Source: a virus
DNA: 27,820 nt
Virus record (IMG/VR): IMGVR_UViG_3300025137_000208
Coordinates: 1 to 27,820 of that record
Reading direction: 5' to 3' (one strand)
The translations under genes and the position numbers were made by a program. The notes under the pieces are model-generated. The model worked only from the letters and a program-made list of their open reading frames with translations, made no database searches and had not been told where the DNA came from. This document shows, piece after piece, positions 5,275 through 16,183 of the stretch; the first letter of the stretch is position 1, and each line of letters starts with the position of its first letter.

Positions 5275-7137
5275 TTATTTCCTTTCGATTAATGGTTTAT
5301 ATATTGTCACCGACTCTGATTTTCCTTTAACTTTGATTTTATCTACTTCTACTGATTTAGTATTATAGAGTTGTTCCATAGTATAAGAAGAGTATAGTGT
5401 TGGCAACACTTTGCCATTTTCGTCTTTGTAGTTTCTAGTTGCTGATTCTAATCTGGCTGCAAGATTAACTGCATCACCAATAACAGAATAGTCAAATCTA
5501 GTATCACTTCCCATATTACCAACAATACAAGTACCTGTGTTAACACCTGAACCTATATTAATTTCTGGTAAACCTTTTTCTTTAAATTCTTGTTTTAGTT
5601 TTTCTGTTTCCTCTGCACATTCAATCGCAGTCTTAACTGCCATTTCAGCATGATTAGGATTATCTAATGGTGCATTCCAAAAAGCCATAATACAATCACC
5701 CATGTATTTGTCTATCGTTCCACCATTGTCTAAAACAATTTTACTCATACGATTTAAATAATCATTAATAACTTCTACCAAACCTTCTGGGTTATTATTG
5801 TTTTTATAATATTCAGAAATTGGTGTAAATCCTACTATGTCCATAAACAGAAAAGACATCTCTCTTCTTTCACCACCAAGTTTTAATTTACTTGGGTCTT
5901 TCTGTAATATTGCAACCTGTCTAGGGTCTAAGTAAGTTTCGAATTGTTTTCTAATTTGTTGTTTTAATTGAAACTCTAAAATAAATCTATTAAAGATACT
6001 ATGTAATCCTACAAAGAGTATTGTAACTAATATCCATGTAGCATCAACTAACATCAATTTGTTTGTAAAGAAATAATATGTTCCGTACACAGCACCTGCT
6101 GAGAAACCAATCATTATTAAACCAACGAACCAATATGCCGTATATCTTGTTAATATAATAATTAATGCACCTACTAGGAATGCTGTTACTAATTCTGCAA
6201 GGAAAGATATATCAACTCTTTCTATATTTGTACCATCAACAACTGTTTGTAAAGTAGAAGCAAGAACAACATAATCATATTGAGCACCAGTTGGTGTAGC
6301 AATTACTCCACCTAAACCTTCTGCCTTCATACCAATAACAATTGTTTTTCCTTCTAAACTAATTTCTTTTGTATCTAAATCTGCAAGAGATATTTCTGGG
6401 TAAGACTTATTCCATGTTAACCATATTCTTGCATTTGCATCAGTATTGATTGTTGCAAACCCAGGTACTCTCATTGCAATAATACCTGCATCCCCTGATT
6501 TGACTTGATAACTCGGGTCACCAACTGCAACTCGAATAACTTCTATTGCAATATTTGGATAAACATCGTTTCCTATCTTCATCAGTAAAGGCATTCTTCT
6601 AACAACACCATCAACTTCTGGTGCTGTATTTGTTGTACCAACACCTGCGGCGTTATCACCGATTTGTGGAATTGGCCCAACCATACCTGGCCATTCAAAT
6701 AACCAATCTAAGGGATTACCAATTTTAGCAACTCCTCTTGGGTATCCGTTTTGACTTGTTTGATGTGAACCTGTCTGTGCGACAACAACAAAATTACCAT
6801 TAAGTGTTTGACTAAAAAATTCATCACCACCCATTCTATCTTGTTCTGAAAATAAGATAGGCATAACAATAACACCTGCACCTTGTTGTCTTAATTTTAT
6901 AATTGTATTTGCCATGACAGTTCTATCCCACGGCCATTGTCCATTTACTTCAATTGCTTTTTCATCAATCGTTACAATTACAATATCATTAGATATAATT
7001 TTATCTTGAGATTGAAAGAGAAGGTCGAATGATTTTAGTCTAAGAATTTCTTTGATTTGTGGGTCTTGTAGTCCAATCCATATTAAAGTAAATAAAGTTA
7101 CAAATGCAACTGTCCAATGTGTGAATATTTTTTTCAT
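5275..7137 (-). CDS. CHASE2-domain class III adenylate/guanylate cyclase
   Basis: The 620 residues read as an N-terminal membrane anchor (about 8-22), a CHASE2 extracytoplasmic sensor (about 35-300, with IVTIDEKAI and GQWPWDR), three membrane helices (about 313-382), a short linker and a class III cyclase domain (about 425-600). Catalytic residues are complete: metal Asp D433 (FMDIVGFT) and D481 (YMGD), purine-selecting K477 and D549, and transition-state N558 and R562 (VNLAARLE). The Lys/Asp pair favours ATP, hence cAMP. Stand-alone bacterial CHASE2 cyclases often lie beside FecR-domain genes, as here. The start overlaps the curlin lipoprotein stop by 4 bases. A full signalling cyclase is unusual in a phage. 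Confidence 0.93.
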   Translation of the reverse strand: MKKIFTHWTVAFVTLFTLIWIGLQDPQIKEILRLKSFDLLFQSQDKIISNDIVIVTIDEKAIEVNGQWPWDRTVMANTIIKLRQQGAGVIVMPILFSEQDRMGGDEFFSQTLNGNFVVVAQTGSHQTSQNGYPRGVAKIGNPLDWLFEWPGMVGPIPQIGDNAAGVGTTNTAPEVDGVVRRMPLLMKIGNDVYPNIAIEVIRVAVGDPSYQVKSGDAGIIAMRVPGFATINTDANARIWLTWNKSYPEISLADLDTKEISLEGKTIVIGMKAEGLGGVIATPTGAQYDYVVLASTLQTVVDGTNIERVDISFLAELVTAFLVGALIIILTRYTAYWFVGLIMIGFSAGAVYGTYYFFTNKLMLVDATWILVTILFVGLHSIFNRFILEFQLKQQIRKQFETYLDPRQVAILQKDPSKLKLGGERREMSFLFMDIVGFTPISEYYKNNNNPEGLVEVINDYLNRMSKIVLDNGGTIDKYMGDCIMAFWNAPLDNPNHAEMAVKTAIECAEETEKLKQEFKEKGLPEINIGSGVNTGTCIVGNMGSDTRFDYSVIGDAVNLAARLESATRNYKDENGKVLPTLYSSYTMEQLYNTKSVEVDKIKVKGKSESVTIYKPLIERK

Positions 7138-7493
7138 TGATTAACTGTTAAAGTACACCAAGTATGATTACAAAATAATGTAGAGTTATATGTTTTGTCA
7201 TTACCTGTTTGATAGATGTTTAAGGAACTACCAGAACCACTACCTCCGGTTACTGTTACATCAACATCATTATTGTTACCGACTTGTTGAACATCTAAAC
7301 TACCACCAACCCATGAACTACCTGAAACATCAATATCGTTATCAATACCATCTTGCAAAATATTAACTGTGGCTGTATTACCTGTGACTGATAGTGTTAA
7401 GTCATTGGCTTCTGTGTTTTCAATTTTAAATGTGCATGAAACTAATAATGTGATTATTAATATACTACTGATTTTGTATAATATTGATTTCAT
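7134..7493 (-). CDS. Curlin-repeat lipoprotein (CsgB-like)
   Basis: A 119-residue exported protein. The N-terminus is hydrophobic and ends in a lipobox, LVSC with C20, so it is probably lipid-anchored. The rest holds three to four curlin-type repeats of the form hydrophobic-x-hydrophobic-x-Q-x-G-x-x-N: VNILQDGIDNDIDV, LDVQQVGNNNDVDV, LNIYQTGND, and a final CTLTVNQ strand. Two cysteines near the end (FCNHTWC) could form a disulfide. A membrane-anchored curlin could nucleate fibres as CsgB does, but the role is inference. It overlaps the FecR gene by 29 bases and the cyclase by 4. Confidence 0.75.
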   Translation of the reverse strand: MKSILYKISSILIITLLVSCTFKIENTEANDLTLSVTGNTATVNILQDGIDNDIDVSGSSWVGGSLDVQQVGNNNDVDVTVTGGSGSGSSLNIYQTGNDKTYNSTLFCNHTWCTLTVNQ

Positions 7494-8592
7494 TACTTCC
7501 CTCTCCTAATGTGTAATCTCGAATTTCGAAATCTTGTTGTGTAACATTTATTATATATCCATTCTCTTGGTCTAACTTTAATCTAATTATGTTTCCTGAT
7601 GCATCTTCTCGTTCCCATATATAGTTTCCGTCTTCTATTATCAATAAGATACCAAACTCGTCTCTACCTTCTTTTCTTTTGTCTTTTACTTTATCAAATT
7701 CACTTCTCATTTGCAAGGCCAATTGTTTATTTAACTCTGCCAATATGTCACCTAAAAAGTTTTGTTCTAAAAAATCAATGTCTAATCTATTAGAATATTC
7801 GTCTTCTTCAACTTCTAGTAAATCAACATCTAAATCATCAAACTTTAAAAAGTCAATATCTAGTGCGTTTCCTATCATTTTTAGATTCTTTTCGTATTGA
7901 ATCTGGTCGTCTAGTTTTGGCGGTCGTCTTACAATTAACAAGTTGTTAATAAGTGATTCATCTAAATCCAAAATCACTGGTGATAATGGTTTACTTTCGG
8001 GCGTATCAACTTGTGTTGCCTGAAATGCTTGATTCATTATAACAAACCCAGCGTCAGATTCTACACTAATTTCACCAACAAAACAATTACCACTTGTGTC
8101 GCAACTTGGTAATAATATAATTGTTGATGAACCTATCTCATCAACTGTCATTGCAAAATCTGTACCTCTAACTGATACAGTAGCAGTTGGTGTCTCTATA
8201 TTTATATTCTGTGCTGAGTTCTTTGCAATTTGACCTGAGGCATATCTCACCGTTCCTAAAGTTGCCTTTAAGGATAGTTTACCTGTCTTTGCTTTTGGGT
8301 CATAGACAAATTCATCTATGATTAATTTAGAATGAGAAGTAACGTCAACTCTTGTATCGTCTAAAAACTCAATAGCAAGTTTTCCTTTGCCTGTTTTAAC
8401 TGTATCATAAGAAAAAACATCTAGGTCTTGTTCTACTTCAATTTCTGTTTTATCTTCTCTTTGAATAACTGAATTTCCCTCTTTCAGTACTACATCACCT
8501 ATACTTGATGCATAGAGCGTAGTACTGAATAAGATTAGGAAAATACCTAAAACGACTGTTTTAGTCTCTTTGAATAATATCGATATTTGCAT
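7465..8592 (-). CDS. Exported FecR-domain protein with curlin-like C-terminal strand
   Basis: About 375 residues with a signal peptide (cleavage near LYASS), then a FecR domain: GDVVLKEG, a DTVKTGKGKLAIEFLDDTRV core and the characteristic TPTATVSVRGTDFAM segment. After it comes an acidic region in which LDIDFL occurs twice, then a basic helical stretch, and the protein ends GSNEINIIQNQ, resembling a curlin strand. FecR domains usually act in the periplasm in signalling or envelope regulation; no sigma factor gene is nearby, but a CHASE2 cyclase is. The start could also be the GTG at 8601. It overlaps the upstream curlin gene. Confidence 0.82.
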   Translation of the reverse strand: MQISILFKETKTVVLGIFLILFSTTLYASSIGDVVLKEGNSVIQREDKTEIEVEQDLDVFSYDTVKTGKGKLAIEFLDDTRVDVTSHSKLIIDEFVYDPKAKTGKLSLKATLGTVRYASGQIAKNSAQNINIETPTATVSVRGTDFAMTVDEIGSSTIILLPSCDTSGNCFVGEISVESDAGFVIMNQAFQATQVDTPESKPLSPVILDLDESLINNLLIVRRPPKLDDQIQYEKNLKMIGNALDIDFLKFDDLDVDLLEVEEDEYSNRLDIDFLEQNFLGDILAELNKQLALQMRSEFDKVKDKRKEGRDEFGILLIIEDGNYIWEREDASGNIIRLKLDQENGYIINVTQQDFEIRDYTLGEGSNEINIIQNQ

Positions 8593-9247
8593 TGTCACCA
8601 CTTGTTGTTAAGTTAATCATATTATCATATACACCTGATTGTGTAATATCGACATCTGCTATCGAACCTGTATGTGAATGAATTAATGTGTGACCTATAG
8701 TATCACCATCGCCGTCTATATCAATTAAGTAATTGTTAGTGTCGCCATTTACTGTAATAGTTAAAATAGCACTTACACCATCAACTGTTGCCGCTACGAC
8801 ATTACTATCTGAGCCTGAAGCACCTGTAATATTTACAGTTGAACCTGCGGCTGAAGATGTTTCACCTATGTCTAGGTCTATATCATTTGATGAACCTGTC
8901 ATGGTTATGTTAGCAGTTATGTTTCCACATGAACTGTTATTATTACCACTATCACAATTTAGGTCTACATCGTTTGAGTTACCAGTCAAGTTTATAACAC
9001 CTGTATAAGTGGCACCATTAATTTGATATTTGATAACATTACTATCACCGACTTGGTCAATATTCAAACTAGTGGTAGCACCAGAAGATGCAGAAGCAGT
9101 TGTACTATTACCTATCGTGTTATTTTGTCCGTCTTGTAAAACATCAAAGGTTAATGATGCACCCGACTGTGTTACATAAATGTCGTTTGCGTTAACCGGA
9201 ATTATTAAAAACATAATAAACATGACGAAACCTATTATTTTTACCAT
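8561..9247 (-). CDS. Curlin-repeat protein (CsgA-like major subunit candidate)
   Basis: A 228-residue protein with a signal peptide (cleavage near VNAND) and about eight imperfect repeats of 20-25 residues in the curlin pattern: FDVLQDGQNN, LNIDQVGDSN, INLTGNSNDVDL, ITMTGSSNDIDL, VDITQSGVYDN and a terminal ANIDIIQRD. It is rich in Asn, Ser, Thr, Gly and Asp and poor in Lys/Arg. Many repeats keep only part of the Q-G-N ladder, so it is divergent from E. coli CsgA. It probably forms a beta-solenoid exported through the CsgG pore encoded just upstream. GAGGGA precedes the ATG. Confidence 0.8.
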   Translation of the reverse strand: MVKIIGFVMFIMFLIIPVNANDIYVTQSGASLTFDVLQDGQNNTIGNSTTASASSGATTSLNIDQVGDSNVIKYQINGATYTGVINLTGNSNDVDLNCDSGNNNSSCGNITANITMTGSSNDIDLDIGETSSAAGSTVNITGASGSDSNVVAATVDGVSAILTITVNGDTNNYLIDIDGDGDTIGHTLIHSHTGSIADVDITQSGVYDNMINLTTSGDNANIDIIQRD

Positions 9248-9280
9248 GTCTTTCCCTCATTTGAACTATATTGTTCGTTA

Positions 9281-10234
9281 TTATTTATGTATTGGATGGT
9301 CTTCATCGGCCCATTCTATGGACTTTTCGATGACTTCTACCTGTTGATTTTCCACATTATTGGTGTTTTTATCAACTTTATTTTCGTTTTCTTTTGGTAT
9401 TTCTATTAATTCATTCTTAAATTTCCAAAATCCTTCTTTTTCACCATCCATTATAATATTTAAAACTGCATATTCGATTGCAGTTCGAATTGCATAATTT
9501 ACAGGTTCATTTACTGCGACACCTGTTTCAACTTCTAATGCCTTAGTTCCCATATCTAAAAACTTAAAAACATCACCACCTTCACTATGGCTTGCAATTG
9601 TTTTAGTTACATTTGTTGTAAGTAATATCTCACCAGTTTGTACTGATATAAGTCTCATGGCAACTGTTACTTGGTCAACTCTATAAGCATCATTTATACC
9701 GATACCAAAGTATCTTGCACCAAAACCACCAGAGTTAGTATTACTGTCGTATCCTACAATTCCACCTTCAACTATTAAACCTGCAAAGAGAAGTGGTTTA
9801 AGTATATTTTCTATTTCTTGTTCACCATCATATAAATCTCTTGTTGAACGAATAAGTTGTCTTTCTTTAACAAGATTGTCTAAATTTTTTCTTTCGATAA
9901 CTTGAAACCAATCACCACCAGATACACTTTTTAATGCATTAATAACAAAGACATCAGCACCTTGTGTTACTGCTGTCGATAATTGAGAAAACTTTGTACT
10001 TGGTTTTCTTTGTCCTGACTGGTCTGTAAAATCATAAACTGCAATAGTAATTACTGGTTGATTATCTAAATCAGGTATATCATGCAACAAGTCTATTGTT
10101 GGTGTACCTTCAATATAAGGCATAGAACCTTTGTATGTTGATTTATTTCCTTGAGAAGTTTGACAACCACTTAATAACAAGGTCAATGTAATCAACACTA
10201 TCACCCCAATGTATGACTGAATATTTGATTTCAT
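9281..10234 (-). CDS. csgG: CsgG-like outer-membrane curli secretion channel
   Basis: A 317-residue lipoprotein with lipobox LLSGC (C24). The core closely resembles CsgG: ITIAVYDFTDQSGQRKPS, STAVTQGADVFVINALKSV, WFQVIERKNLDNLVKERQLI, then ILLTTNVTKTI and a C-terminal helical part ending in a charged tail. CsgG forms a nonameric outer-membrane pore with a 36-strand barrel that passes unfolded curlin subunits and is capped by CsgF. The C-terminal extension rich in Asn, Lys and Glu goes beyond the E. coli protein (277 residues including signal). The ATG follows the 94-residue gene by two bases with AGGAGAG upstream. The fold assignment is secure; its use by a phage is not known. Confidence 0.93.
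   Translation of the reverse strand: MKSNIQSYIGVIVLITLTLLLSGCQTSQGNKSTYKGSMPYIEGTPTIDLLHDIPDLDNQPVITIAVYDFTDQSGQRKPSTKFSQLSTAVTQGADVFVINALKSVSGGDWFQVIERKNLDNLVKERQLIRSTRDLYDGEQEIENILKPLLFAGLIVEGGIVGYDSNTNSGGFGARYFGIGINDAYRVDQVTVAMRLISVQTGEILLTTNVTKTIASHSEGGDVFKFLDMGTKALEVETGVAVNEPVNYAIRTAIEYAVLNIIMDGEKEGFWKFKNELIEIPKENENKVDKNTNNVENQQVEVIEKSIEWADEDHPIHK
9282..9289 (-). promoter_or_regulatory. Possible variant late promoter before the curlin gene
   Basis: CATAAATA differs by one base from the T4 late consensus and lies 35 bases before the curlin ATG. It also encodes the last codons and stop of csgG (His-Lys-stop), so a chance match is quite possible. Confidence 0.25.
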
Positions 10235-10236
10235 CT

Positions 10237-10521
10237 TTAGTCTCTCCTTGCGTCTTCTTTACCATCTGCCCTACTTATTCTCTCTTCATCTTGTCTCAAA
10301 TTCAATGCATCTGATATTTGAATATCTAATTTAATCATATCATTATTCATGTTTTTTACTCTATTGTCTAACGCCATAATAATTCCATGCATTCCTGATA
10401 CTTGACCTATAACAGATTCAAGTATATATTTTAAAATCAAGAATATAAAATATCCCATAACAACTGCGGCTGCTACAGGTAATCCAAATTCAGCAAGTAT
10501 AGTAAAGAATATATTGTCCAT
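10237..10521 (-). CDS. Single-helix membrane protein with coiled coil, paralogue A
   Basis: The 94 residues comprise a membrane helix (about 8-34, VAAAVVMGYFIFLILKYI), an amphipathic helix with NRVKNMNNDMIKL, and a charged tail. It is clearly related to the 86-residue protein on the other side of csgF: both share MGYFI, the Asn-Asp-[Met/Leu]-Ile-[Lys/Arg]-Leu motif and the following LxLR. Related small proteins occur in T4-like marine phages as far as I recall, sometimes labelled holin-like. Between csgF and csgG it may be part of the secretion apparatus. The topology and role are inferred. Confidence 0.65.
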   Translation of the reverse strand: MDNIFFTILAEFGLPVAAAVVMGYFIFLILKYILESVIGQVSGMHGIIMALDNRVKNMNNDMIKLDIQISDALNLRQDEERISRADGKEDARRD

Positions 10522-10529
10522 TATCTATC

Positions 10530-11027
10530 TTAAAATACAAAATCCCCTATCGGTACTGTTATAACAGTAATCGTACCATCATCAGAAGTAACAGTTAATG
10601 TTATTATATCGGAAGTTGTATCTTTAACCCAAGCAATTGTAGCACCCTCTATCTCCGAAGTACCACTAGTTGGACATGTTGTTGTACTACTATCACAACT
10701 TGTTCCAAACATATTATCTACTAATTGTTTTGATAAGTTTGCGTAGATTCTTGATTCGACATTTGCAATAAACTTATTGACAGTTTTATTTTTTTCTGCT
10801 CTTTCTGCAGCTGAGGCTGCTGATTTTGCCTCATCTTTCATTTTTTGCCTTCTTTGTTCTTGTAATTGGTCAACAGATAGTACATGAGAAGAGTAACCAT
10901 CTCCACTAAATGCAGGGTTACCAAATTCAAAATACATTTCACTTGCATAGACAGGTTTTACTAACCATGCTATGAATACGATTATTAGGATAAAAAGACC
11001 GGGTAAATATTTTTCTTTATTGTTCAT
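10530..11027 (-). CDS. csgF: CsgF-like curli assembly factor
   Basis: A 165-residue protein with a signal peptide (cleavage after VYAS). The mature N-terminus, EMYFEFGNPAFSG, matches the CsgF segment that inserts into the CsgG channel (aromatic/hydrophobic alternation then NPxFxG). The C-terminal beta region (IAWVKDTTSDIITLTVTSDD, then VITVPIGDF) matches the CsgF end. Between them are a Lys/Ala/Glu-rich helix and a CDSSTTTCPTSG loop with two cysteines, both extra relative to E. coli CsgF. CsgF caps the pore on the outside and couples export to nucleation. It lies between the two paralogous membrane proteins. Confidence 0.85.
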   Translation of the reverse strand: MNNKEKYLPGLFILIIVFIAWLVKPVYASEMYFEFGNPAFSGDGYSSHVLSVDQLQEQRRQKMKDEAKSAASAAERAEKNKTVNKFIANVESRIYANLSKQLVDNMFGTSCDSSTTTCPTSGTSEIEGATIAWVKDTTSDIITLTVTSDDGTITVITVPIGDFVF

Positions 11028-11035
11028 ATTAGTAT

Positions 11036-11296
11036 TTATTCTTTATCTTTCTTTGATTTTTCTATTTCTCTTAAAGTTAAAACTGTATTCAATTTAGAAC
11101 GCAATCTAATCAAATCATTATCTAACATACGAATTCTATCGATTAAAGCAATAAGAACTGTACTCATCTCTGATAATTTAACTTTAACTTGAGTTGTTAT
11201 ATACGTATAAATGAAGTATATAAAGTAACCCATACCTATTGCGGCTAGGGTTGCAAAACCGTATTGATTTAATACTTCAACAATATCCATAGACAT
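11036..11296 (-). CDS. Single-helix membrane protein with coiled coil, paralogue B
   Basis: The 86 residues comprise a membrane helix (about 12-33, FATLAAIGMGYFIYFIYTYI) and an amphipathic helix with IDRIRMLDNDLIRLRSKL ending in a Lys/Glu tail. It is homologous to the 94-residue protein on the far side of csgF. The GxxxxAAxGMGYFI pattern suggests helix packing in the inner membrane. Its start is 5 bases after the PIG-L stop, with TAGGAG upstream. It may be a general phage membrane protein or part of the curli-like module; position alone favours the second. Confidence 0.65.
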   Translation of the reverse strand: MSMDIVEVLNQYGFATLAAIGMGYFIYFIYTYITTQVKVKLSEMSTVLIALIDRIRMLDNDLIRLRSKLNTVLTLREIEKSKKDKE

Positions 11297-11301
11297 TACT
11301 C

Positions 11302-11880
11302 CTATACGATAAGAGTATCTACTTTAAATATTTCTGCATGTTGGGTTTCAATAAAAGCCCCACGATAAGCAGTAAGATGCTCTGTATCTTTCGTCCACTT
11401 TGTTGATACATTTTTGTAACATAAAATGGAATTTTTCTTTTGCTCTATGTATTTAGTAATATCTACGAAGACATTTGCATCAAAACTAGTGTACTTTTGA
11501 CAATAAGGATATGCATTCATATACCATACATTTAAAGGTTGTTTTCGTCTTAAACTGTTTCCTAAGTCATGACAGAATCTATGGTCTTGATGCCAATCTT
11601 CTTTCCAATGCGTTATGAGTAAGTCATAGGATGATATATCAATTAATGCCTCAATTTCTGCGACAACTTCTCTTGTTATTGATTCATCTCTATGTTCAAG
11701 ATATAGTGGATTAAAACCAAGTATCTTCGAAGATTCAGGCACATATTTTTTATGAGGTACATTTGAACAAACAATTAAGTTTGTTACTTCAACACCTTCA
11801 TCAACAAATCTTGCAACTGTTCCACCACACGCCAGTTCTAAATCATCTGGGTGTGCAGTTAATACTAAAACTTTTTTCAA
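11302..11880 (-). CDS. PIG-L/LmbE-family deacetylase
   Basis: This 192-residue protein has the family hallmark AHPDDLELACGGT (H10, D12, D13) and the second metal motif HQDH (H97, D99, H100). PIG-L enzymes are zinc-dependent deacetylases of N-acetylglucosaminyl groups on lipids, thiols or glycans. The length is near the family minimum. It overlaps the glycosyltransferase-like gene by 4 bases (ATGA), so the pair probably acts on the same glycan, perhaps a surface sugar or a DNA modification. The substrate is not visible from sequence. Confidence 0.85.
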   Translation of the reverse strand: MKKVLVLTAHPDDLELACGGTVARFVDEGVEVTNLIVCSNVPHKKYVPESSKILGFNPLYLEHRDESITREVVAEIEALIDISSYDLLITHWKEDWHQDHRFCHDLGNSLRRKQPLNVWYMNAYPYCQKYTSFDANVFVDITKYIEQKKNSILCYKNVSTKWTKDTEHLTAYRGAFIETQHAEIFKVDTLIV

Positions 11881-12590
11881 TAGGTACCCTTTCTAGAATG
11901 TGTCCAAATTGCTTTATCATACCAATCTAGATACTTGTCACCTGTGTAATTTTCAAATGCATAGATATATCTTTCGGGGTATTCGGGTGATTCTTTAAAA
12001 CACCAATGTGCAGGTTGTAATAAAAGTTCAGCATGTTTAACCATATCCCAAACAAAGTTTTGTTCACCTAAATCTTCTCTATCTACTAATCCATTTTTCC
12101 AATAAAACTTTTTAAAATAATGATAATGTTTTTTATATATTTCTGCAACATGTTTAAATTCATGAGATTTAAATTTATAAAAATTTCCACTAATAGGACA
12201 ATCTTTCATCTTATCTTTTGCCCACCATCTTGGCATACTTGCAAATTGACCTTCTTTAATAGGAAAGTTGATAACACAACTAGGGTCATCATGCCAGAAC
12301 ATATCAATATCTACTACGATGGTTTCATCGTGTTTATCTGCATTTAACATCTCTGGGTCAAAGAAATAAGATTTAACCCAATGATTATGTCTTTTGATTT
12401 CTTCTTCTTTTAAATAATGATTAACAATTTGAACATCATTTGAAAAATCAACCATTGGTGTATCTGATAATAAGTGAAACTTTACATTTTCAACATTGTT
12501 ATTTACAGGTTCAATTATGTCTTTAACTAATTTAGTTGTAGAATGACCTTTAAGTTCTTTACCATAACGAACCATACAGACATGTATCAT
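11877..12590 (-). CDS. Glycosyltransferase-like protein (GT-A type, DxD)
   Basis: The 237 residues begin with a beta-strand start (MIHVCMVRYG) and carry VVDIDMFWHDDP at 91-102, where D94 and D96 form a DxD motif as used by GT-A glycosyltransferases to hold a metal-bound sugar nucleotide. The C-terminal half is rich in Trp, Tyr and His. I do not recognise the subfamily, so donor and acceptor are unknown. It is coupled by 4-base overlaps to the nuclease-like gene upstream and to the PIG-L deacetylase downstream, which supports a joint glycan-modifying role. Confidence 0.65.
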   Translation of the reverse strand: MIHVCMVRYGKELKGHSTTKLVKDIIEPVNNNVENVKFHLLSDTPMVDFSNDVQIVNHYLKEEEIKRHNHWVKSYFFDPEMLNADKHDETIVVDIDMFWHDDPSCVINFPIKEGQFASMPRWWAKDKMKDCPISGNFYKFKSHEFKHVAEIYKKHYHYFKKFYWKNGLVDREDLGEQNFVWDMVKHAELLLQPAHWCFKESPEYPERYIYAFENYTGDKYLDWYDKAIWTHSRKGTY

Positions 12591-12922
12591 GACTTGTCGT
12601 GTAGCCTCACAAAATAATCTGCATCTACTAAGACTAGGGGTTTAGTATTATTTCTTTTTAATACTACGATAGGTTCATACTTACCAGAGTTCTCTTTGGC
12701 CTGGTCATAAGACTTCCAAATATTAAGTGCCTCTTGATTTTTGCATTCTATAGAATAAGGAAACTTTTCCCTAGCCGCACGGGCCATGATGAGGTCTTCC
12801 CCACCTGCGCCCATACTTCTAGATTCTATATCTTCTTCATGTATATTAAGCTTTTCAATCAGTAAATCACGAAACCATTGTTGTAATCTACGACCCTTTG
12901 CTTTGGCCGATTGTGTTTTCAT
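12587..12922 (-). CDS. PDDEXK-type nuclease-like protein
   Basis: The 111 residues start with AKAKGRRLQQWFRDLL, then MGAGGEDLIM (E42, D43) and YSIECKNQE (E59, K61), reproducing the D...ExK layout of small PDDEXK nucleases such as Holliday-junction resolvase-like phage enzymes. The IWKSYDQAKENS helix following the motif is also typical of this fold. The likely role is phage recombination or host DNA degradation. It overlaps neighbours by 4 bases on both sides. Confidence 0.7.
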   Translation of the reverse strand: MKTQSAKAKGRRLQQWFRDLLIEKLNIHEEDIESRSMGAGGEDLIMARAAREKFPYSIECKNQEALNIWKSYDQAKENSGKYEPIVVLKRNNTKPLVLVDADYFVRLHDKS

Positions 12923-13074
12923 TCATCTTCATCCTCATATGCTGTTAATTCTTCATCAAAATCATGTTGAGTACCGCAAAATGGGCAGTACTCAATTATG
13001 TAGTAGTTTGAATCTAAAGTGTGTTTAATATCATATGTTGCTTCGCAGTCCTCACATAAGATATTTTTTTTCAT
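12919..13074 (-). CDS. 51-residue zinc-ribbon protein
   Basis: A short protein with CEDC (C7, C10) and CPFCG (C30, C33), a two-knuckle zinc ribbon, followed by an acidic tail ending YEDEDE. Its ATG shares a base with the nrdB stop (TAATG) and its TGA overlaps the next ATG, so it exactly fills the space between two coupled genes. Zinc binding is inferred from the knuckles. Small ribbons like this are common in phage replication clusters; the partner is unknown. Confidence 0.7.
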   Translation of the reverse strand: MKKNILCEDCEATYDIKHTLDSNYYIIEYCPFCGTQHDFDEELTAYEDEDE

Positions 13075-14399
13075 TAGAATAAACTTTCTTGTACAAATTT
13101 ATCATGGTTATGTTCTTCTACTGTACATGTACCTTCATCTGCGTCACAATTAACTTTAGAGTTTGGGTCTTCATAAGCAACACCCCAATCACCAGTTAAT
13201 CCAGCGACTTCATACTCGGTCACTCTATTTTCAAAGAAGTTTGTATGGTCTGCGGCATTTAAAATCCACTCTAACCATGGTATCGGATTTTCTTTGACTT
13301 TAAAGTTTGTCTTTAATCCAAGTTGTAGTAATCGTCTGTCTGCGATATATCTTATATATGTCTTAACATCTTCTTTAGGTAGACCTTCTGGTTCACCCAT
13401 TTTGTATGCTAATTCAATAAACGCATCTTCAAGTTCAACAACTTTTCTTGACATTTCATAGATTTCTTTCTTTAATTCATTGTCAACTAAAGAAGCATTT
13501 TCAGCACAGAATGCTCTGAATAAATGTGCAATACCTTCAACGTGCATTGATTCATCTCTTACTGACCACTCAACAATCTTACCAGAACCTTTCATCTTAC
13601 CGAATCTTTGAAAGTTTAGTAACATAACAAACGATGCAAATAATGAGATACCTTCGTTCATAACTGATTTAGCAAGTGCAAGTGCCATTCCTCTTTTTGT
13701 ACTTACATTTGAATTCATCATGAAATCAACCTTGTCAGCCATCTCTTGATACTCTAGGAATGCGTGAAACTCTTCGTCTGGTAAACCAAGTGTTTCATTT
13801 AATAATGCATATGCTCTTTGATGTATTCCTTCTCTTGATGCAAAAGAACCTAACATGTTTCTTATTTCATTGTTTTTAAACTTTGGTAAGAACTGGTCAT
13901 AATAGTTTTGTCCAACAGCAACATCTGATTGTGTGAAAAGTCTAAGAACATGTGTTACAAATTCTTTTTCAATATCAGTCATCTTGCCGCCTTTCCAATC
14001 TGTTACATCTTCGGATAGGTCAACCTCATCTTCAATCCAATGAACTTTTTCATGTTTTTGAACAAAATCAACTGCCCAAGGATAATGGAAAGGTTTGTAT
14101 GTTTCGTTAAACTTGTAAAGTCCACCACCTCTTTTTTTAAGAATCTTTTCTGAACTTTCAAGCAATTGTGCATAACCACCAATTCTTTCACCATTCACAA
14201 AAATTTGTGGAACAGACATAATACTACTTGCCTTGTTTCCTATCTTTTCCTCTACATTATTAACTCTTTGGAAAAATTCTAACTTTTCTTCTTCATTGAT
14301 TAGCGAGTGTTCAGTAAACTCAATTCCGTGTTCATTAAACCAATTCTTTGCGTTTAGACAATAACCGCAAGTTGGCGTTGAATATATTTGTACATCCAT
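13074..14399 (-). CDS. nrdB: Glutaredoxin-ribonucleotide reductase beta subunit fusion
   Basis: The 441 residues form two domains. Residues 1-85 are a glutaredoxin with the TCGYC active site (C11, C14) and the cis-Pro VPQIFVNGERIGGY segment. Residues about 95-441 are a class I NrdB: E190, H193 and radical Tyr Y197 (REGIHQRAY), E249 (NEGISL), E283 and H286 (RDESMH). The enzyme makes deoxynucleotides for phage DNA, and the fused glutaredoxin could reduce NrdA directly. The last residues (KFVQESLF) would be the NrdA-docking tail. It lies 20 bases after nrdA. The fusion removes the need for a separate phage glutaredoxin gene. Confidence 0.95.
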   Translation of the reverse strand: MDVQIYSTPTCGYCLNAKNWFNEHGIEFTEHSLINEEEKLEFFQRVNNVEEKIGNKASSIMSVPQIFVNGERIGGYAQLLESSEKILKKRGGGLYKFNETYKPFHYPWAVDFVQKHEKVHWIEDEVDLSEDVTDWKGGKMTDIEKEFVTHVLRLFTQSDVAVGQNYYDQFLPKFKNNEIRNMLGSFASREGIHQRAYALLNETLGLPDEEFHAFLEYQEMADKVDFMMNSNVSTKRGMALALAKSVMNEGISLFASFVMLLNFQRFGKMKGSGKIVEWSVRDESMHVEGIAHLFRAFCAENASLVDNELKKEIYEMSRKVVELEDAFIELAYKMGEPEGLPKEDVKTYIRYIADRRLLQLGLKTNFKVKENPIPWLEWILNAADHTNFFENRVTEYEVAGLTGDWGVAYEDPNSKVNCDADEGTCTVEEHNHDKFVQESLF

Positions 14400-14419: not shown

Positions 14420-16183
14420 TTATGCTTGACAAGCCAGACATTCTTCTTCTTCTTTTTTGATGTCTGAAAAATCACTTAATTTATCTAACTTCACTTTCGA
14501 AGCAATATTTTCTGCTCGATGTGAAACTTCCGTTCTTAAATAGTAAAGTCCTTTACAACCACTTTCCCATGCTCTCATGTGTGCTGACTGTACATACTTC
14601 TTCGATGCTCCTGCTGGAAAAAACAAATTTAATGATTGACCTTGGTCTAAGTAAGCTTGTCTTTGTCCACCAAGTTCAACCAATCTCATTTGGTCTAACT
14701 CAACAGCAGTTTTGAATACTTCTTTAGTTTCGTCATCTAAAAAATCAAGATGATGTACAGAACCTGCATTGGTAACAATACCTGTCCAAACTTCAGCGTT
14801 ATTCATTTTGTGTTTTTCAAGTATCTGTTCAAGATACTTATTTTTCATTAAATGCGAACCTGCTCTAGTTCTATGTGTGTATGCATTTGCTTTATTAGGT
14901 TCAATAGATGGTGATGTTCCTACTATCATTGAACTATTAGCATTAGGTGCAATTGCAAGACAATGAGCATTTCGTCTTCCGGTGCCTTCCATATCTGGTG
15001 CAACACCCTTTTCTTTTCCTAAGAGTACAGTTTGTTCGTCTGCTTCTTTTCTTATCCAAGAAAATATTTCTTTATTAATATGTCCTGATTTTTCAAATGG
15101 TATCATATGTTTTTGTAAATAGGAATGATAGCCCATAGCACCAAGTCCAAGACTTCTTTCTTGTGTTGCAGAAAATTTTGCTCTTGATAAATCATCTGGT
15201 GCATTATCTATAAAGAATTGTAATACATTATCTAAAAATGTAATAAGGTCTTTTACAATATTTGAATCTTTATAATCATCGTACTTTTCTAAGTTAAGAG
15301 ATGATAAACAACAAACTGCTGTTCTATCTTCACTAGTAGGTAAATGAATTTCGTTGCATAGATTTGAACCATGAATCTTTAGTCCTTTATCTTTTAGTGC
15401 CTTTGGCATTTTATCATTTGCAGTATCAATGAAGTTGACATAAGGTTCGCCTGTTCTAAATCTTGTTTCTAAAATTTGTTCCCATAACTTTCTTGCCTTA
15501 ACAACTTCTCTAACAGTACCATCATGTGGGTCAATAAGTTCCCAATCTAAACCTTGTTTAACTGCATCCATAAATTTATTTGTAACATTAACTGCATTAT
15601 GTAAGTTTAGACACTTACGACCAATGTCACCAGTTGGAATACGAATTGTTAAGAACTCTGCAATGTCTGGGTGTGATACATCTAAGTAAGCCGCATAACT
15701 TCCTTTTCTAGTTCTACCTTGACGATACGCTAGCATATCTGCATCTACTGTATGCATAAATGGTAATGGGCCTGGTGCAACATCTGATACAGAACGAACG
15801 CCTGACCAATGTCCACCAACTCCACCACCTTTAACAGACAACCATCTAAGTTCTGATGTGTGAGAAATTAATCCTTCTAATGTATCTGGTACATAAGTTA
15901 AAAAACAAGAAATGGGTAATGCCTTTGGTTTTTTGTTTGGAAGAGGTGCATTTGATAAAACTGGCGATGCAAACATAAACCAACCTTTGGATGCGTAATC
16001 GTAAATTCTTTGTGCAAGTTCTCTGTCACCATAACAGTAGGCGTTTGATGCTCTTGCTAGTGCGTATTGTGGAGAAGGTTCATCATCTAAACAATAATAA
16101 TCTTTTAAAAGTTTCTGTGCTTGGTCTGAAAAGTTTTGGTCTCTGTCGGTGTCGATTTTGATGTTACAATATTGTTTTTTCAT
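14420..16183 (-). CDS. nrdA: Ribonucleotide reductase alpha subunit, class I
   Basis: The 587 residues contain the catalytic set: C93 (PISCFLTY) and C292 region (AVCCLSSLN) as the redox pair, N274/C276/E278 (NLCNEIHLP), the GLYYLRT tyrosine pair for radical transfer, and a C-terminal CLACQA shuttle pair (C582, C585). The protein is much shorter than E. coli NrdA (761 residues) and lacks the N-terminal ATP-cone, so dATP feedback inhibition is probably lost, as in other phage enzymes. It overlaps the radical SAM gene by 20 bases. Confidence 0.96.
   Translation of the reverse strand: MKKQYCNIKIDTDRDQNFSDQAQKLLKDYYCLDDEPSPQYALARASNAYCYGDRELAQRIYDYASKGWFMFASPVLSNAPLPNKKPKALPISCFLTYVPDTLEGLISHTSELRWLSVKGGGVGGHWSGVRSVSDVAPGPLPFMHTVDADMLAYRQGRTRKGSYAAYLDVSHPDIAEFLTIRIPTGDIGRKCLNLHNAVNVTNKFMDAVKQGLDWELIDPHDGTVREVVKARKLWEQILETRFRTGEPYVNFIDTANDKMPKALKDKGLKIHGSNLCNEIHLPTSEDRTAVCCLSSLNLEKYDDYKDSNIVKDLITFLDNVLQFFIDNAPDDLSRAKFSATQERSLGLGAMGYHSYLQKHMIPFEKSGHINKEIFSWIRKEADEQTVLLGKEKGVAPDMEGTGRRNAHCLAIAPNANSSMIVGTSPSIEPNKANAYTHRTRAGSHLMKNKYLEQILEKHKMNNAEVWTGIVTNAGSVHHLDFLDDETKEVFKTAVELDQMRLVELGGQRQAYLDQGQSLNLFFPAGASKKYVQSAHMRAWESGCKGLYYLRTEVSHRAENIASKVKLDKLSDFSDIKKEEEECLACQA

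Follow-up and report, generated by a model that had tools for sequence, protein, structure and literature searches.

A curli-like export module with T4-type late-promoter motifs in a T4-like phage

The DNA analysed here (the window) is IMGVR_UViG_3300025137_000208, a 27.8-kb linear virus record in which a first-pass annotation had described a curli-like secretion module carried by a T4-like phage. Open reading frame (ORF) calling and Pfam searches confirmed that the module is real. Eight tightly packed minus-strand genes occupy positions 5275-11296 (Table 1), with overlaps of 4, 29, and 41 nucleotides (nt) and gaps of no more than 33 nt at the remaining contacts. All genes named in the first-pass annotation were present where it had placed them, its list of parts was right, and the CsgG, CsgF, FecR, and CHASE2 profiles that it had suggested searching were all recovered by Pfam. 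Two small membrane proteins that flank csgF and had been left unnamed, tmA and tmB, also belong to the module, the gene order around csgF being tmA-csgF-tmB-csgG. A chimeric assembly joining a bacterial contig to a phage, raised in the same annotation as what would undo its reading, was rejected, because independent metagenomic contigs share the junction between the module and nrdB. Contigs L005-L008 from other metagenomes also carry the module; L006, L007, and L008 share the order nuclease-like gene, glycosyltransferase, PIG-L deacetylase, tmA, csgF, tmB, csgG, and L006 and L008 additionally include nrdB, as the window does.

Table 1. Module genes, candidate promoter sites, and the adjoining gene in the window (aa, amino acids; TM, transmembrane segment)
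Feature	Position	Strand	Remarks
CHASE2-class III adenylate cyclase, 620 aa	5275..7137	-	CHASE2 1.6e-40, Guanylate_cyc 4.1e-18 (Pfam)
cur2, second curlin-type protein, 119 aa, variable position	7134..7493	-	Curlin_rpt E=0.0029, below gathering score
Secreted FecR-domain protein (probable), 378 aa	7465..8601	-	signal peptide, FecR fold, coiled linker, curlin-like C-terminal end ...GSNEINIIQNQ
cur1, first curlin-type protein, 228 aa, signal peptide, all-beta repeats	8561..9247	-	relatives and AlphaFold 2 (AF2) model
CsgG outer-membrane lipoprotein pore	9281..10234	-	Pfam CsgG 2.2e-50; lipobox LSGC
NATAAATA, late-promoter-like site	9282..9289	-	42 nt before cur1
tmB, 94 aa, single TM, charged helix, ..DARRD end	10237..10521	-	phrog_18771; hydropathy
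CsgF, 165 aa	10530..11027	-	Pfam CsgF 6.7e-13; conserved N-terminal F-x-N-P-x-F-x-G
AATAAATA, T4-type late-promoter motif	11033..11040	-	exactly 13 nt before csgF
tmA, 86 aa, small membrane protein, tmB paralogue	11036..11296	-	phrog_18771
PIG-L deacetylase	11302..11880	-	Pfam; directly upstream of module, outside conserved module

Along its entire length, the window CsgG matched structures of E. coli CsgG (1.4e-72), and it scored far better against the CsgG profile (6.8e-53) than against HfaB (5.8e-9). Its lipobox cysteine, C24, was invariant in 20 sequences, and together with the Pfam match these properties identify a CsgG-type outer-membrane lipoprotein pore. The N-terminal stretch of CsgF was strongly conserved among 112 sequences (F35, 99%; P38, 99%; F40, 97%; G42, 97%); its binding to CsgG is predicted. 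Profile searches recognized no CsgE, CsgC, or CsgD among the module proteins scanned, and all three were stated to be absent in PMC9599517.

The two curlin-type proteins were recognized at the level of their families. Curlin_rpt matches were obtained for 6 of 17 members of the cur1 family and 15 of 25 members of the cur2 family (best, 7.6e-23), and these relatives secure the weak calls in the window, where cur1 gave no Curlin_rpt match in the Pfam scan and cur2 stayed below the cut-off. An AF2 model of cur1 (predicted local distance difference test score (pLDDT) 84.6, predicted template modelling score 0.80) was predicted to consist of all-beta repeats. cur2 is very variable in sequence among loci. 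A PA14 domain was found on 2 of the 25 cur2 family members (best, 4e-10), which by sequence are gp018 of phage HTVC008M and the protein of L019. PA14 domains often bind carbohydrates. Their presence on some second curlins appears to be new. The window cur2 contains a possible lipobox, LVSC, which is confined to the window lineage, and a conserved lipoprotein curlin was therefore rejected.

The FecR-domain protein matched Pfam FecR (6.1e-9), and its model (pLDDT 77.9) resembled the cell-surface signalling domain of PupR (6ovk) over residues 63-224 (Z 15.4, root-mean-square deviation (rmsd) 3.0, 137 residues aligned) and a cell-surface anchoring domain (5ix9) over residues 31-126 (Z 8.2, rmsd 2.1, 74 aligned). 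The periplasmic FecR fold of an anti-sigma regulator is thus present. The cytoplasmic anti-sigma domain and inner-membrane anchor of such regulators are missing from the protein, its FecR domain directly following the signal peptide, and ORF calling and Pfam revealed no partner sigma factor gene within the module. The C-terminus follows the pattern '..YxLGxxxxNxIxIxQ', in which I374 and Q376 (I-x-Q) are invariant in 26 sequences; relatives from Caulobacteraceae have the same type of end. Because of the signal-peptide start and the invariant curlin-like end, the protein is more likely a secreted, curlin-tagged component of a fibre or an anchor than an anti-sigma regulator, a reading of this "FecR regulator" that appears not to have been reported before. 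Of the two "signalling proteins" of the first-pass annotation, the cyclase fits that description, while the FecR-domain protein looks secreted. A wider bacterial search with the latter mostly returned FecR domains within other, often giant proteins.

The cyclase consists, judging by hydropathy, of an N-terminal TM, a periplasmic CHASE2 domain, further TMs near residues 310-387, and a cytosolic cyclase domain that matches CyaB (3r5g, 9.4e-34). The residues expected of a class III adenylate cyclase, i.e., two metal-binding aspartates, the adenine-binding lysine, and the transition-state arginine, are all present, and D433, K477, D481, and R562 are invariant in 74 homologues; position 558 is N in 51 of these and S in 23. 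PADLOC matches to the gene were generic cyclase matches and were discarded.

tmA and tmB are paralogues (hhalign 98.7%, 1.9e-16), and members of their family are ~81-132 aa long. A search of viral contigs that used only tmA and tmB as queries yielded 125 loci beyond the first set, some being overlapping views of one contig. csgF or csgG was present in 101; of the remaining 24, the majority either break off close to tmA/tmB or contain the cyclase. In two of ten records checked (L260, L262), CsgG lies in another part of the record, while L153, L201, L212, and a few more are fragments. No clear case of tmA/tmB as a phage gene independent of csg was seen among the 125 loci, and linkage is kept even in a group of loci where tmA/tmB lie on the strand opposite to the rest of the module. 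Since most loci hold csgF or csgG and most others are truncated or show the cyclase, tmA and tmB are constant partners of the csg genes, a linkage that appears not to have been reported before. One or two "histidine kinase" (HK) genes were placed upstream of csgF in 2022 (PMC9599517); matched by position in that paper and not by sequence, these are probably tmA and tmB. The family has no invariant histidine that could accept a phosphate, no ATPase domain, and no kinase family match. tmA and tmB are thus not kinases, and this correction of the HK label, provided that HK corresponds to tmA/tmB, appears to be new. Matches to YvrJ-type small holins were weak (4 of 29 members, best 0.051, all E>=0.05), and the holin-like similarity is only suggestive.

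T4-type late-promoter motifs, (N)ATAAATA, were sought within 100 nt upstream of module genes in 83 non-redundant loci, with dinucleotide shuffles as the control. The motif preceded tmB in 43 of 81 loci (shuffle mean 5.4, maximum 13) and csgF in 25 of 83 (mean 4.3, maximum 10), lying at exactly -13 in 15 of the latter. One or both of these genes were so preceded in 58 of 81 loci. The cyclase gene had the motif in 12 of 57 loci (mean 2.2, maximum 6), and tmA, CsgG, cur1, and FecR in 0-2 loci each. In the window, all seven such sites are on the coding strand; the NATAAATA site before cur1 was not conserved in relatives. In HTVC008M, the motif was found before 12 of 30 structural genes vs. 1 of 20 replication genes, classes that represent our own sorting of the annotated genes. 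The csgF motif of this phage is at -13, the same spacing as in four structural genes, and its record annotates a late sigma factor and a putative late promoter transcription factor. By sequence, the module thus resembles a T4-type late gene set, with a TATAAATA-like motif before the operon and a phage late sigma factor. The motifs ahead of tmB and csgF predict expression of the module late in infection, a motif being the basis here rather than a measured start site. An earlier attempt at late-promoter prediction in pelagimyophages failed (PMC7029224, 2020), and the late-promoter motifs of the module appear not to have been reported previously.

The module is present in more than 130 other phage loci, among which its order is conserved; the order was likewise kept over more than 50 loci from the CsgG search and in 101 of 125 from the tmA/tmB search. 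For bacteria, genomes were scanned once with the CsgG profile. This uncovered csgF-csgG-curlin-FecR-CHASE2 cyclase operons in two Caulobacteraceae metagenome-assembled genomes (MAGs; L065, L066) and in Hyphomonas TMED17 (L075). The operons of L066 and L075 are flanked by ordinary metabolic genes, i.e., they are chromosomal. Gene content and order are those of the phage module, but neither tmA nor tmB was found in these three genomes. Such alphaproteobacterial chromosomal versions appear not to have been reported before. Such operons are uncommon: among 249 genomes from the Caulobacteraceae family no other close match turned up, and 299 from the Hyphomonas order yielded a single partial one. 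Among 297 genomes of the SAR11 order, the only strong CsgG was encoded, along with csgF, curlin, and FecR, by a 3-kb contig that looks like phage DNA. The three bacterial CsgG proteins join the phage clade (support 100/99) and nest inside phage sequences. The approximately unbiased (AU) test did not reject a single phage CsgG clade (p=0.07), and no call is made from the tree on the direction of transfer.

The module also occurs on twelve contigs filed under bacterial MAGs (L059-L064, L067, L069, L107, L111, L115, L137) and assigned to Flavobacteriaceae, Rhodobacteraceae, Pelagibacter, Sphingobacteriales, and others. These contigs, ten of which carry tmA/tmB, appear to be phage sequences that were binned with the bacteria. 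A distant CsgG homologue (~26% identity) is encoded by ~350-kb Brevundimonas phages (Kabachok, L003 5896-6786, and relatives), with no other recognized curli module genes nearby. OR851715.1, a 1.5-kb record named Salmonella phage, contains a csgG-like gene (38.5% identity) and is probably host DNA.

The first-pass annotation had mentioned that csgG and csgF were known from some pelagimyophages, and they were indeed published in 2020 together with companion genes and a "sibling capture" idea (PMC7029224). Its guess that the complete module might be new did not hold, since podoviral and myoviral pelagiphages had been described in 2022 as carrying the whole set, comprising CsgF and CsgG, one or two curlins, FecR, cyclase, and the upstream HK genes (PMC9599517). 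In GenBank, CsgF, CsgG, curlin, and cyclase are annotated for HTVC008M; the Melnitz entry adds FecR and a second curlin to these. The type VIII secretion system (T8SS) module of PMC9599517, which includes HTVC008M, has CsgF, CsgG, curlin, FecR, second curlin, and cyclase in the same order as the window, small upstream genes, and alphaproteobacterial affinity; the window differs in its tmA-csgF-tmB-csgG order and in a cur2 of only 119 aa. That paper stated that FecR and cyclase do not lie within bacterial T8SS operons, to which the L065, L066, and L075 operons are exceptions. The PMC7029224 cluster likewise combines CsgF/CsgG with small and curlin-associated genes in T4-like pelagimyophages; no CsgA/CsgB, FecR, cyclase, or late promoters were recognized there, whereas curlins, FecR, cyclase, and late-promoter motifs were seen here. 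The OM43 myophage Melnitz has the same operon, arranged tmB-tmA-csgF-csgG-curlin-FecR-curlin-cyclase. It was reported to lack csgA/csgB (PMC9004378), but its GenBank record MZ577097 (L002) annotates two curlin-repeat proteins, FecR, and cyclase. A CsgG-type pore and a curlin-type substrate are also shared with E. coli curli (csgBAC/csgDEFG), from which the phage module differs by the unrecognized CsgC, CsgD, and CsgE, and with the Caulobacter HfaAB holdfast anchor.

Immediately upstream of the module and in the same orientation, window positions 11302-12922 encode the PIG-L deacetylase, a possible 237-aa glycosyltransferase, and a small nuclease-like gene, a trio absent from the corresponding position in HTVC008M. 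Further upstream, the NrdB-like protein (13074-14399), judged by sequence alone, opens with a stretch resembling glutaredoxin (TPTCGYC) and may be a glutaredoxin-NrdB fusion. The ribonucleotide reductase large subunit (14420-16183) is just 587 aa long, vs. ~747 aa annotated in HTVC008M, and its Pfam barrel domain matches fall in two stretches. No Rfam families, tRNA, or tmRNA were found in the window.

We consider it probable that this is a type VIII (curli-like) export module of pelagimyophages that is made late and covers the dying cell with curlin-type fibres. Phage CsgF and CsgG would be expressed from a T4-type late promoter and form a nonameric outer-membrane pore. Sec-exported cur1, cur2, and the FecR-domain protein, the last ending in its own curlin-like segment, would leave through this pore and build a fibre on the surface of the infected cell, while the CHASE2 cyclase and tmA/tmB, the latter a pair in the inner membrane, may couple the inner-membrane or periplasmic state to the system. 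The most likely use would be an adhesive fibre on a cell near lysis, keeping new hosts or siblings close. The late-promoter motifs, and the PA14 domains on some curlins, speak for a structure that is displayed on the surface late in infection. Several points weigh on the other side. About 28% of loci have no late motif ahead of tmB or csgF; cur2 of the window is short and stays under the Pfam cut-off; the cur1 model had no significant match in the PDB, CsgA (8enq) being just rank 31 with E=3.3; and gating is unexplained because no CsgE was recognized in the module. No fibre or clumping was observed with the related phage Melnitz (PMC9004378), even though both curlins are encoded in its record; this observation speaks against strong aggregation in the conditions of that study. 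A more elaborate proposal is offered tentatively: a composite, virus-run late adhesive fibre of curlins, some with PA14, and of FecR attached via its curlin tail, which would hold the next hosts near, with tmA/tmB as a new phage-specific control part absent from bacterial curli, and with an operon that moved between phage and alphaproteobacterial chromosomes.

Superinfection exclusion, in which a surface fibre would mask receptors or trap competing virions, was proposed in PMC9599517 and agrees with a phage-made surface structure; the adjoining PIG-L deacetylase and possible glycosyltransferase may also change the surface. With late motifs, though, protection would begin when it is least useful, and we regard this use as unlikely. 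It is rather improbable that the module times lysis, with CsgG/CsgF and holin-like partners tmA/tmB disrupting the envelope at the end of infection. The late motif, the small size, single TM, and charged helix of tmA/tmB, their few YvrJ-like matches, and the pinholin role proposed in Melnitz (PMC9004378) speak for such timing, but those matches are below significance, chromosomal versions of the module have no tmA/tmB, and the curlins, FecR protein, and cyclase would be left unexplained. Equally doubtful is an ungated outer-membrane channel of CsgG (with CsgF) serving mainly for nutrient or cofactor uptake, the curlins being secondary. This was proposed in both PMC7029224 and PMC9599517 and suits a module in which CsgE was not recognized; however, the curlins and FecR protein are as regular in the module as the pore, CsgF is retained, and late motifs fit poorly with feeding replication. 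A genomic passenger, moved between phages and bacteria and functionless in this phage, might show such high sequence divergence and so variable a cur2, but the order conserved in more than 130 loci, invariant active sites, and conserved promoter position indicate selection and make it very improbable.

With the late motif, the corrected identities of HK and the "FecR regulator", and the relatives in bacteria, a gene cluster that had been described but not explained now yields testable predictions on timing, export, and parts. If the phage does make planktonic cells sticky just before lysis, this would be relevant to how phages are transmitted and how particles form in the open ocean.

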